Shown here one piece after another: positions 5,890 through 33,541 of a stretch of 33,541 nucleotides of DNA (positions are counted from its first letter, which is position 1; each line of letters begins with the position of its first letter). The notes under the pieces were generated by a model. The model was not told the DNA's origin, did not search any database, and saw only the letters and a program-made list of their open reading frames with translations. Both the position numbers and the translations under genes were made by a program. Source of the DNA: Candidatus Competibacteraceae bacterium (lineage in GTDB: Bacteria > Pseudomonadota > Gammaproteobacteria > Competibacterales > Competibacteraceae); contig JAPUDV010000092.1 in NCBI GenBank assembly GCA_027492875.1, forward strand, positions 24,924 through 58,464, read 5' to 3'.

Positions 5890-7647
5890 ATGCCGTTTTC
5901 GCTGCATGGCATCGGGGTTTCCCGGGGGTATGCGATCGGCAGGACCTACCTGCTGCAGCGCAACCAGCCGGAAATCGCCGAGTACACTATTCCGGATACC
6001 ATCGTCGAGGATGAAGTTCATCGCTTTCTGAACAGTCTGGACGTGGCCAGGCAGCAACTGCGCGATATCCGGGTGCAGGTTCCCGCGACGGCGCCCGGCG
6101 ATGCCGCCGCCTTCATCGACACGCATCTGCTGATGCTGGAAGACGCGACCTTTACCGAGGCGCCGATCAAGCTGATTCGCACGCGCAAGTGCAACGCCGA
6201 ATGGGCGCTGAAAATCCAGCGGGACACGCTGGTCCAAGTGTTCGAGGACATGGACGATCCGTATCTGCGCACCCGCAAGGACGATGTGGACCATGTGGTG
6301 CGGCGAGTGCAGCGCGTTCTGGTGACCGAGGATCCGGCCTATCTGCACGACCCCGATTACACCGAGCTGGCGTCCAGCCGACTGGAAGGGCGCATCGTTG
6401 TCGCCGACGACCTGACTCCGGCCGACACCATCCTGATGCAGCATCAGGGCGTGCTGGCTTTCGTGACCGAATACGGCGGCCCGCTGTCCCACACCGCCAT
6501 TCTGGCGCGCAGCCTGGGCATCCCGGCGGTGGTCGGCGCGCGCAACGCCCGCGCCTATTTGGGCCACGACGAACCGGTGATCGTCGATGGCCGCCAGGGC
6601 GTGATCCTGCTCGGTTTGGACGAGCGTATTCTGCGCTACTACCGCCACAAGCAGCAGGAGGAGCGCCGGCAACAGCGCGAATTGAACAAGCTCAAGGGCA
6701 AGCCGGCGATCACTCGCGACGGGCTGACGATCAGCCTGTACGCCAACATCGAACTACCGGAGGACGCGGCGGCGGTGCGGGACGTGGTGGCCGACGGGGT
6801 CGGCTTGTACCGCACCGAATTTCTGTTCATGAACCGCTCCGACGTGCCGGACGAGGAAGAACATCTGGCTTCCTACCTGCATGTGATCAAGACCCTGGAA
6901 GGCAGCCCCATCACCATCCGCACCGCCGATCTCGGCGCTGACAAGCAGGTGGACGGCGGCCGCGGCAGCGGCCCGGTCTGCACCAATCCGGCGCTCGGCT
7001 TGCGGGCGATTCGGATGTGCCTCAAGGACTTGGCAATGTTTCGCCCGCAGTTGCGCGCCATCCTGCGGGCCTCGGCGCACGGGCCAGTACGGATGATGAT
7101 TCCGATGTTATCCGCCATCCAGGAGGTGTTCCAGGTGCTGCGGCTGGTGGCGGAGACCAAGCAGGAATTGCGCGACCGGGGTCTGGCCTTCGACGACAAG
7201 ATGCCGGTCGGCGGCATGATCGAGGTGCCGGCGGCGGCGGTATGCGCGCCCCAATTCGCCCGCTATCTGGACTTCCTGTCGATCGGCACCAACGATCTGA
7301 TCCAGTACACCTTGGCCATCGACCGGGTGGACGATGAAATCAACTATCTCTACGATCCGCTGCATCCGGCAGTGCTGATGCTGATCCGCAACACCATCCG
7401 CGCCGGCCACAAAGCCGGTATTCCGGTCAGCCTGTGCGGGGAGATGGCCGGCGATCCCCGCTACACCCGGTTGCTGCTGGGGCTGGGCCTGATCCAGTTC
7501 AGCATGCATCCCACCGCGCTGCTGGAGATCAAGCGGGTCATTCAGGGCAGCGAGGTTGCCGGGTTGACCGCTGCGGTCCACCATCTGCTGCGCGTTACCG
7601 ACGCCGAGAAATACGTCGAAGCGCTTAAGAACATCGCCCAGAATTGA
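5890..7647 (+). CDS. ptsI: Phosphoenolpyruvate-protein phosphotransferase (PTS enzyme I)
   Basis: Enzyme I autophosphorylates from phosphoenolpyruvate and hands the phosphate to HPr. At 585 aa it is a plain enzyme I: it begins MPFSLHGIGVSRGYAIG and has no N-terminal GAF domain, unlike enteric PtsP. The phosphohistidine is His201 in GGPLSHTAILARSLGIPAVVG. The C-terminal TIM-barrel PEP-binding half shows 'TADLGADKQ', 'SIGTNDLIQYTLAIDR' and the catalytic cysteine Cys516 in VSLCGEMAGDP. It is the last gene of the block. No sugar-specific EII gene is visible, which supports a regulatory role. The 97-base gap to the convergent Nudix gene shows no convincing terminator. Confidence 0.96.
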   Translation: MPFSLHGIGVSRGYAIGRTYLLQRNQPEIAEYTIPDTIVEDEVHRFLNSLDVARQQLRDIRVQVPATAPGDAAAFIDTHLLMLEDATFTEAPIKLIRTRKCNAEWALKIQRDTLVQVFEDMDDPYLRTRKDDVDHVVRRVQRVLVTEDPAYLHDPDYTELASSRLEGRIVVADDLTPADTILMQHQGVLAFVTEYGGPLSHTAILARSLGIPAVVGARNARAYLGHDEPVIVDGRQGVILLGLDERILRYYRHKQQEERRQQRELNKLKGKPAITRDGLTISLYANIELPEDAAAVRDVVADGVGLYRTEFLFMNRSDVPDEEEHLASYLHVIKTLEGSPITIRTADLGADKQVDGGRGSGPVCTNPALGLRAIRMCLKDLAMFRPQLRAILRASAHGPVRMMIPMLSAIQEVFQVLRLVAETKQELRDRGLAFDDKMPVGGMIEVPAAAVCAPQFARYLDFLSIGTNDLIQYTLAIDRVDDEINYLYDPLHPAVLMLIRNTIRAGHKAGIPVSLCGEMAGDPRYTRLLLGLGLIQFSMHPTALLEIKRVIQGSEVAGLTAAVHHLLRVTDAEKYVEALKNIAQN

Positions 7648-31306: not shown

Positions 31307-31378
31307 GATAAGTTGTCGGATATCCTATACGATGTCCAAATACGCTGGTTGAATGACCGATTCAAAAACAACGCTTTT

Positions 31379-31510
31379 CGTCATACCCGTCCTCGCGAAC
31401 GCGGGGAACGCGGGTATCCCATTTTTCAGCGGCGGCCTGGATTCCCGCATTCGCGGGAATTCGGTCGGCGAGGCTCCCGAGCCGGACGAAAACCTATTCA
31501 GAATGGGTAT
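31379..31510 (-). repeat. Intergenic repeat, copy A (dRS3-like core)
   Basis: This is an about 130-base element whose reverse complement closely matches copy B at 32467-32574. It contains the 20-bp core ATTCCC-N8-GGGAAT (31441-31460), the pattern known as dRS3 in Neisseria. A second compound hairpin has arms ATACCCG / CGGGTAT at 31383-31417. The outer 19 bases (31492-31510) are identical to those of copy B. Copy A has about 27 extra bases near 31461-31488. Confidence 0.85.
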
Positions 31511-31711: not shown

Positions 31712-32098
31712 TCACACCTTGCGCACCGGGCCGGGGTATCGTGCGACCCGTTCGTCGGAAGTCAGCAGCGTGATCCCTTCGACCAGAGCTTGCGCGACCA
31801 AGAGGCGGTCAAATGGATCTTTATGGATCGGCGGCAACCCGTCGATGGCGACGGCGTGCTCGCTGCCGACCGGCAACTCGCCGTAGCCGTTATCCAGTAG
31901 CCCGCGGCGCAGCAACCGGACGTCGACCCGAAAATCCTCGCGCCCCAACCCGCGTTTGATCGCGATCTCCCACAAGCTCGCCGCGCTGAACAACAGCTCG
32001 TTTTCTGGGGTCTCGATCAAGGCGCGCGCCTCCGCCGACAGGCGAGCGGGACTTCCGGCTGCCCACAATAATAAATGGGTGTCCAACAGCAGCTTCAC
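31712..32098 (-). CDS. vapC: VapC-type PIN-domain toxin
   Basis: PIN-domain toxins are Mg2+-dependent ribonucleases that cut tRNA or rRNA when their antitoxin is lost. The 128-aa product has the acidic site Asp6 (LLLDTHLLLW), Glu44 (SLWEIAIK), Asp97 (KDPFDRLLVAQA) and Asp115 (TSDERVARY). It looks intact. The start is GTG, overlapping the antitoxin stop by 4 bases (GTGA), the normal arrangement for coupled expression. Codon use and length fit a functional gene. Confidence 0.93.
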   Translation of the reverse strand: MKLLLDTHLLLWAAGSPARLSAEARALIETPENELLFSAASLWEIAIKRGLGREDFRVDVRLLRRGLLDNGYGELPVGSEHAVAIDGLPPIHKDPFDRLLVAQALVEGITLLTSDERVARYPGPVRKV

Positions 32099-32340
32099 GC
32101 CTCGCCACCGAACAGCCGCTCGATCTCGGCATCGCCCATCCGATCAAAGTCGTCCGGGACAACGATCTGTCCGGCCATGAAGCCCAACCGTTGCCGCTGT
32201 CCCGCTTCCGGGGCGTTCAACGCCATGACCTTGACCAACGGCTTGCCGGCCTTGGCGATCACGAACGGCTCGCCCTGGGCCGCTCGCTCGACGAGTCGGG
32301 ACAACTGCGTCTTCGCCTGGTGGATATTGATGGTCTGCAT
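32095..32340 (-). CDS. vapB: Phd/YefM-type antitoxin
   Basis: This is an 81-aa antitoxin with the Phd/YefM DNA-binding N-terminus (MQTINIHQAKTQLSRLVERA, then GEPFVIAKAGKPLVKV). A C-terminal tail (DFDRMGDAEIERLFGGEA) probably wraps the toxin. GGAG lies 6 bases before the ATG. It should repress its own operon through the palindrome at 32353-32379. The vapBC name reflects the PIN toxin partner; by fold the antitoxin is of the Phd class rather than the AbrB class. Confidence 0.92.
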   Translation of the reverse strand: MQTINIHQAKTQLSRLVERAAQGEPFVIAKAGKPLVKVMALNAPEAGQRQRLGFMAGQIVVPDDFDRMGDAEIERLFGGEA

Positions 32341-32379: not shown

Positions 32380-32466
32380 AAAATCGCAATGCGGTCACCT
32401 CGAAACCGATTTCTCCTCGGGATCGTGGCGTCGCCTCATACCATTTTCGGGTCGGTTTTCGTTTTC

Positions 32467-32574
32467 ATACCCATTCTGAATAGGTGTTCGTCATTCCCGC
32501 GAATGCGGGAATCCAGGCCACCGTCGAACAACGGAAGACCCGCGTTCCCCGCGTTCGCGAGGACGGGTAGGACG
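32467..32574 (+). repeat. Intergenic repeat, copy B (dRS3-like core)
   Basis: This is the inverted partner of copy A. It carries the core ATTCCC-N8-GGGAAT at 32493-32512 and the outer 19 bases at 32467-32485 that are identical to copy A. A second half (about 32538-32574) holds the GC-rich compound hairpin. The two copies face each other across the vapBC module with about 956 bases between them. Confidence 0.85.
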
Positions 32575-32665
32575 AACAGGGGGGTTTTGGGCCTCCGAAA
32601 AAAACAAAACCGATCGGGAACCGGTATGACCCCGCTGACCCCCGACGCCGTGCACGGTCTGCCGA

Positions 32666-32725
32666 CAACTCGTGACAGGCTTGCACCGCCCGGGGGACCG
32701 CATCGCGCGCAGTTTCATCGGCCAT
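32666..32725 (-). pseudogene. Possible 5' remnant of an avd gene (DGR accessory protein)
   Basis: An ATG at 32725 opens a frame whose first 20 residues (MADETARDAVPRAVQACHEL) look like the start of bacterial Avd four-helix proteins. After the HEL the sequence changes to low-complexity, family-unlike residues, and the frame then runs into repeat B. The fragment lies 75 bases downstream of the FGE-fold gene on the same strand, where avd usually sits in a diversity-generating retroelement. The resemblance is from memory and only 20 residues long, so it is tentative. Confidence 0.4.
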
Positions 32726-32741
32726 TGTGGATAACTTTCTC

Positions 32742-32768
32742 AAAAAAATCGCCCGCGCTGCGCGCGGG
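32742..32768 (-). terminator. GC hairpin with T-run downstream of the FGE-fold gene
   Basis: Perfect 7-bp arms CCCGCGC / GCGCGGG close a 3-base loop. On the minus strand a run of seven T follows after CGA. It is 31 bases after the FGE-fold stop and works as a standard terminator. A GC hairpin just after the variable region is also a known target-site feature of diversity-generating retroelements. Confidence 0.75.
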
Positions 32769-32799
32769 AATAAAGGGTAAAAAGATAAAGATCAAAGGC

Positions 32800-33516
32800 T
32801 TATAACGATCTGGCGAGGCGAAAACCCGTGCCGTTGAAGCGGCTCGTCGGCGCGTTCCCGCCGCGGCTGGCGGAACGCACCCCTGCGGGTTCGACGTTCC
32901 AGGAGCCGCCGCGCAACGACCGGGGGTCGCTTGTATCTTTTGTGGTGCATTTCGTCTCCACGCCGCCGTAGTTCTCATCGTATAACGAGCAGGTCCATTC
33001 CCAGACGTTCCCGCTCAGGTCATAAAGTCCGTAGCCGTTGGCGGCTTTCCGACCCACCGGGTGGGTCTGGCTATCGCTGTTGTCGTAATACCAGGCCAGC
33101 CGGTCGGGGTCGTCACCGCCGCAGTAGCGTTGTCCCGCGACGCCACCCCGACAGGCGTATTCCCATTCGGCTTCGGTGGGAAGACGGTAGTTCCGGCCTG
33201 TTCGGGCGTTGAGCTTTTGCAGGTACGCCTGAATGTCGTTCCAGGAGACCTGTTCCACGGGGTAGTCGTCGCCGAGTTTGAAATGGGATGGGTTGTCGCC
33301 CATCACCGCTTGCCATTGCCCTTGAGTGACTTCGTATTGGCCGATTTCGAAGCTGTTCACACAGACTCGATGCTGCCGTTCGTCACTATCTCGATTCGCT
33401 TCCGATGCTGGACTGCCCATCTGAAAACACCCCGCCAGTATCCGCACCATTTTCGGTTCAAGAAGCGGTGCAGCGGGTGCGGCGACCGGCGGCGATTCGG
33501 CGACCGGCGGCGTCAT
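32800..33516 (-). CDS. Formylglycine-generating-enzyme-fold (SUMF1-like) protein, probably cut at its 5' side by the window
   Basis: The frame stays open upstream of ATG 33516 to the window edge (…SPKPPAI), so the real start may lie outside. The visible part is a Pro/Ala-rich linker of about 20 residues. A full FGE-sulfatase/C-type-lectin domain follows: MVRILAGCFQMGS, QYEVTQGQWQAVMG, YRLPTEAEWEYACRGG, NGYGLYDLSGNVWEW, and the end RGGSWNVEP...GTGFRLARSL. The active-site cysteine pair of true FGE is not present, so it is not a formylglycine enzyme. The C-terminal 40 residues have the form of a retroelement variable region, with AGC, GGC, GTC and TTC codons where related proteins carry AAC (Asn). 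Confidence 0.85.
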   Translation of the reverse strand: MTPPVAESPPVAAPAAPLLEPKMVRILAGCFQMGSPASEANRDSDERQHRVCVNSFEIGQYEVTQGQWQAVMGDNPSHFKLGDDYPVEQVSWNDIQAYLQKLNARTGRNYRLPTEAEWEYACRGGVAGQRYCGGDDPDRLAWYYDNSDSQTHPVGRKAANGYGLYDLSGNVWEWTCSLYDENYGGVETKCTTKDTSDPRSLRGGSWNVEPAGVRSASRGGNAPTSRFNGTGFRLARSL

Positions 33517-33541
33517 GATCGCTGGCGGCTTGGGCGAATCC

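Follow-up and report, generated by a model that had tools for sequence, protein, structure and literature searches.

Diversity-generating retroelements (DGRs) rewrite a short stretch of a target gene: a complex of reverse transcriptase (RT) and Avd copies the RNA of a template repeat (TR), inserting random bases where the template has adenines; the resulting cDNA then takes the place of the variable region (VR) beside a hairpin (PMC3240598, PMC10907252). In the DGR of the Bordetella phage BPP-1, the VR lies at the 3' end of a gene for a protein with a C-type-lectin fold, a GC hairpin follows downstream, and mutagenesis is adenine-specific and involves Avd; hairpins of BPP-1-like phages have 4-nt GRNA loops and lie 4–34 bp from the VR (PMC3240598). 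Thiohalocapsa PB-PSB1, a gammaproteobacterium with chromosomal DGRs, C-type-lectin targets and repeat-associated decay, offers a cellular counterpart: MITE-like repeats have replaced the RT or the TR at DGR loci, degenerate loci coexist in the population with variants in which these parts are intact, and diversification in trans has been inferred, an intact locus of each class remaining (PMC10907252).

Here we describe a locus at one end of a window of 33,541 nucleotides, the whole stretch of DNA that was analysed, from a Candidatus Competibacteraceae genome (G000:C92, positions 24,924–58,464) that is available as a draft of 146 contigs and is 97.6% complete. The locus most likely represents a decayed DGR, a formerly hypermutated and now frozen target. 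It resembles the BPP-1 system in the position of the VR at the 3' end of a gene for a C-type-lectin-fold protein, in the GC hairpin downstream, in the association with avd and in divergence directed to adenines, but it is cellular rather than phage-borne, and phage records returned nothing resembling it. It also resembles the gammaproteobacterial chromosomal DGRs of Thiohalocapsa in its type of target and in its repeat-associated decay; however, Thiohalocapsa keeps an intact locus of each class, whereas none was found in the genome of the window. Feature coordinates are collected in Table 1.

Table 1. Features of the DGR-derived locus; positions are those of the window unless another locus is named.
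Feature	Position	Strand	Basis
DGR variable protein (VP), C-terminal FGE-sulfatase (formylglycine-generating-enzyme/C-type-lectin fold) domain	32800..33540	-	Pfam PF03781, 5.7e-51
VR, 101 bp, GGCGGCTCC...CTCGCCAG	32810..32910	-	adenine bias against G047 TR; pN/pS
VR invariant 3' end, GGTTTTCGCCTCGCCAG, in the place of the IMH	32810..32826	-	comparison with G047 TR
GC hairpin CCCGCGC-GCA-GCGCGGG, perfect 7-bp stem, 31 bases past the VP stop	32752..32768	-	sequence
avd, first 20 codons, MADETARDAVPRAVQACHEL, remainder absent	32666..32725	-	identity to G053:C141
Breakpoint at which DGR homology ends	32665..32666	.	blastn boundaries against L115 and L116
Dispersed inverted repeat arm beside the breakpoint	32467..32588	.	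repeat-like similarity reaches about 32627
Phd/PIN toxin–antitoxin pair between the inverted arms	31712..32340	-	Pfam PF02604 and PF01850
Second DGR fragment: avd from codon 31, deleted RT, toxin–antitoxin pair	L245 (G000:C61) 6423-6901	minus	

The first-pass annotation, made from the sequence alone, had read a minus-strand FGE-fold protein ending RGGSW...GTGFRLARSL, and both the ending and the domain are confirmed. The open frame is 5'-incomplete: base 33541 of the window is the last of the contig's 58464 bases, so the listed coordinates cover only the C-terminal part of the gene. Its nearest relative (G001:C33, same genus, 71% identity) is a protein of 636 amino acids with a Ser/Thr kinase-like start, a proline-rich linker and a C-terminal FGE domain, and by analogy the window protein probably also sits behind a kinase domain. 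A search of the other contigs of the genome for the missing N-terminal kinase part returned only other kinases; a match on C70 was rejected as a short spurious frame. FGE-domain proteins are common in this bacterial family, and the genome encodes several others besides the window VP, which is the single member of its own VP family there.

Intact cassettes in close relatives supply the reference for what the locus would once have contained. A contig of Candidatus Contendobacter SCELSE-2-Con (G047:C26; JARSSO010000026) carries a complete cassette with a VP ending GFRLARSL, a hairpin, avd, an RT with the YVDD motif and a TR. Between its VR and its own TR, 15 of the 25 template adenines differ but none of the 76 other sites does, a pattern characteristic of a DGR that is active or was so recently. 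Elsewhere in the family DGRs give the same picture (for example, adenines account for 10 of 10, 11 of 11 and 14 of 14 differences). This cassette and that of G053:C141, the RTs of which are 88% identical to each other, share with the window the hairpin and the avd start, as well as, in G047, the GFRLARSL tail. Intact cassettes of this type are ordered VP, hairpin, avd, RT and TR, which corrects the earlier placement of the TR before the RT. In both relatives avd, RT and TR are intact, whereas in the genome of the window avd is split, the RT is deleted and the TR is absent.

We compared the window VR with the TRs of these relatives, no TR having been found in its own genome. It differs from the foreign G047 TR at 15 of 25 adenines and 7 of 76 other sites (Fisher 8.1e-7), and from the G053 TR at 17 of 28 adenines and 10 of 73 others (Fisher 5.6e-6). 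Some of the seven non-adenine differences from the G047 TR sit where the G053 TR has an A, so template drift between species accounts for part of them. Apart from a single T-to-C change, the invariant 3' end of the VR matches the G047 TR, which runs on beyond it. The codon pattern that had been noted in the last 40 codons is real: measured against a relative's TR, the changes concentrate at template adenines. Together with the C-terminal C-type-lectin/FGE-fold domain that ends in the VR and the GC hairpin close behind it, this clustering marks the gene as a DGR target by descent. Among 12 VRs of the family, pairs differ on average by 0.63 in template-A columns and by 0.11 elsewhere.

Substitution rates separate the two parts of the gene. 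When the window gene is compared with seven relatives, purifying selection is seen in the part of the domain just upstream of the VR (dN/dS 0.14–0.34 where dS is finite), whereas in the VR pS falls to 0.13–0.30 and pN/pS rises to about 0.9–2.0, as expected if a template had overwritten the stretch with mutation at adenines. A non-DGR FGE gene elsewhere in this genome, on C63, served as a negative control and keeps a conserved tail in 14 genomes; the PF03781 fold is common to such proteins and the window VP, but the tail of this orthologue group is conserved, unlike that of the window VP. Amino-acid identity of the tail (0.58) against that of the domain (0.50) is not diagnostic alone, because codons without adenines remain conserved through retrohoming; the per-column pattern, rather than overall identity, distinguishes DGR from non-DGR FGE families.

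The hairpin lies at the spacing given by the first-pass annotation and its stem is perfect. Downstream of it the sequence reads CGATTTTTTT, and the order from the VP stop onwards is 31 bases, the hairpin, a run of T, TTATCCACA and an ATG at 32725. Its position is kept in most relatives, with a varying stem sequence; hairpins after VP stops in L081, L083, L084, L117, L115 and L280 vary in both stem sequence and length, and their loops are of 3 nt, mostly GNA (GCA, GAA, GGA). Loops of 3 nt, mostly GCA or GAA, in the window and its relatives thus contrast with the 4-nt GRNA loops of BPP-1-like phages. In L078 (G001:C33, at about 1990–2010), most of the pairing is lost from the hairpin behind an RT-less VP, perhaps through decay of a homing site that is no longer used.

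Beyond the ATG, avd is cut short. The resemblance to an Avd start had been put at about 20 codons; it covers exactly 20, and all 20 residues are identical to the avd start of G053:C141. The avd start of G001, used as a query, finds the same stub in the genome of the window (E 4.8e-5). Blastn against L115 and L116, two relatives with a complete avd, places the end of homology exactly at 32666 (89% identity over 133 bp to L115), so that the earlier estimate of about 32665 was right to the base. A frame of 92 amino acids spanning the stub (32465–32743) was considered as a whole avd and rejected; it has no Pfam match, and its start alone is avd. About 40 bp beyond the break begins a dispersed repeat, the partner arm of which lies inverted at 31365–31510 (arms 88–96% complementary) and which has more copies on contigs C9 and C84. 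This repeat may have caused the break in avd. The Phd/PIN pair between the arms is no part of the DGR and probably belongs to what replaced its 3' half.

The remainder of the machinery was sought across the genome. The only full-length RT, and the single Pfam RVT_1 match, is on C145; PADLOC groups it with the type XIII retrons (8.7e-156), a WGR-domain gene adjoins it, and it was rejected as the DGR RT. This retron type XIII-like RT (L001, G000:C145, 1264–2562, minus strand) is flanked by the WGR-domain gene and a SWIM-like (CxC...CxH) protein, and several genomes of the family encode RTs that resemble it in length and score. The RT of G047, used as a query, instead identified C61:14503–14631, which is 88% identical to RT residues 1–43. 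The end of contig C61 falls within avd at codon 31 (FPRARRF), and on its minus strand the contig runs on from there to the end of avd and into the RT. After the hexamer GGAACG, a repeat shared at the deletion point, the RT makes an in-frame jump of 654 bp to a later part of the gene; the deletion removes the YVDD stretch, the catalytic core, and the frame continues for a short stretch before it is cut off into an antitoxin/PIN-toxin pair. The remnant is 89% identical to the G053 cassette up to the jump, and the RT/avd piece shows 86–89% DNA identity to the G047 and G053 cassettes. The avd pieces in the window (codons 1–20) and on C61 (codon 31 to the end) do not overlap, leave a gap of 30 bp and would fit a single locus that was split.

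Whole-genome DNA searches with the window VR and with the G047 TR found no TR, and none lies downstream of the RT remnant on C61; a 43-bp match of 81% on C84 and other short matches were rejected as chance or as parts of other FGE genes. Of what a functional cassette comprises, the assembly thus contains a remnant of a DGR-clade RT, an avd split between the window and C61, and, by either query, no TR near-identical to the VR save at adenines. The first-pass suggestion that the TR and RT were lost fits these results, the RT being broken and situated on another contig.

Related losses seem to recur in the family. G001, a 99% complete draft, has two VPs, one of which (G001:C33) is followed by 42 codons of avd, and yielded no DGR RT or TR. 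G024 is 100% complete and carries some eight DGR-type VPs (L080–L084; G024:C26, C71 and C21). Their tails are hypervariable and of the GFRLARSL type; no TR of the matching type was found, and the TRs that were found there belong to other types only. Several VPs on these contigs have a hairpin and no avd, and avd is cut at other points behind the VPs of G001:C33 (after 42 amino acids) and of G024:C24 and C29. Across these genomes, all drafts, this suggests repeated loss of machinery with retention of targets, and RT-less targets exist at least in G000 and G001, and apparently in G024 too.

How the stub arose is a question separate from the present state of the gene. The VP, hairpin and avd stub could be a satellite copy in which the 5' part of a cassette was duplicated, spreading targets, rather than the product of 3' loss. 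VPs of relatives with a hairpin and no avd, or with avd cut elsewhere, are what such copying might leave; however, the genome of the window contains a single VP of this family and a single avd remainder, and its avd fragments do not overlap, as one split locus predicts. We therefore regard duplication as somewhat unlikely and loss of the 3' half as considerably the more probable origin. The break itself might instead be an assembly chimera formed through the dispersed repeat, in which case the true locus would run from the VP through avd (perhaps interrupted by the repeat) into the deleted RT, as on C61. The repeat close to the break recurs near contig ends (C9 and C84), and C61 starts 30 bp further into avd, but the junction at 32665 falls outside the repeat, and a chimera is unlikely. 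There is next to no chance that the gene is an ordinary FGE-domain gene that was never part of a DGR: such genes are frequent in the family and in this genome, but the adenine-directed divergence from a real TR, the avd stub identical at every residue, the hairpin at the same spacing and the clean C63 control already contradict it.

The main rival for the present state, also raised by the first-pass annotation, is that diversification of the gene continues in trans, driven by an intact RT and TR that are missing from the draft or carried by only some cells of the population. Published trans diversification beside degenerate loci in Thiohalocapsa PB-PSB1 (PMC10907252) gives it a precedent, and the VR and hairpin are intact, as expected of a target still in use, which speaks against a frozen gene. 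Draft gaps also adjoin both DGR pieces, the VP being cut by a contig end and C61 ending at avd codon 31, so an intact second copy could be absent from the assembly. Against this, neither a TR-like copy nor an intact RT of the DGR clade was found in a genome that is 97.6% complete, the RT piece present has lost its core, and the sister genome G001 likewise has just VPs and an avd stub. The assembly thus lends no support to trans diversification, which we consider unlikely; the likeliest present state is that of a fixed-specificity protein.

The truncated-DGR reading is upheld by what is observed directly: the avd match and the boundaries of its homology, the adenine bias against a relative's TR, and a broken RT in an assembly with neither a TR nor an intact DGR RT. 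We propose that the FGE-domain gene was a one-time target, the final 101 bp of which were copied in by mutagenic retrohoming, an adenine-rich template being the source, and that the hairpin just past the gene, by analogy with phage BPP-1, marked the homing site. The cassette would then have broken, leaving 20 codons of avd followed by a repeat-flanked toxin–antitoxin segment; the remaining avd and an RT short of 654 bp, including its catalytic core, lie at the start of C61, and the template is gone. The gene carries the product of hypermutation and the target hairpin in a genome without the means to repeat the process, and we infer that in this lineage it is now frozen and retained as a sensor or binding protein of fixed specificity. 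Degenerate DGR loci have already been published for Thiohalocapsa (PMC10907252); the decay here looks to be of the same kind, and the locus is another, well-documented case.

For the family as a whole, it is possible, although doubtful, that the mutagenic machinery has been lost repeatedly while purifying selection maintains the orphaned DGR targets. Hypermutation would then be transient, and its products would become fixed as stable sensors that the return of a matching RT and TR might re-arm. The pieces can still be read here within one genome: a target with an adenine-directed scar, the homing hairpin, an avd in two parts and an RT with a deletion. Together with the intact cassettes of close relatives and the RT-less targets, they form a good natural series on the fate of hypervariable proteins after loss of the mutator.
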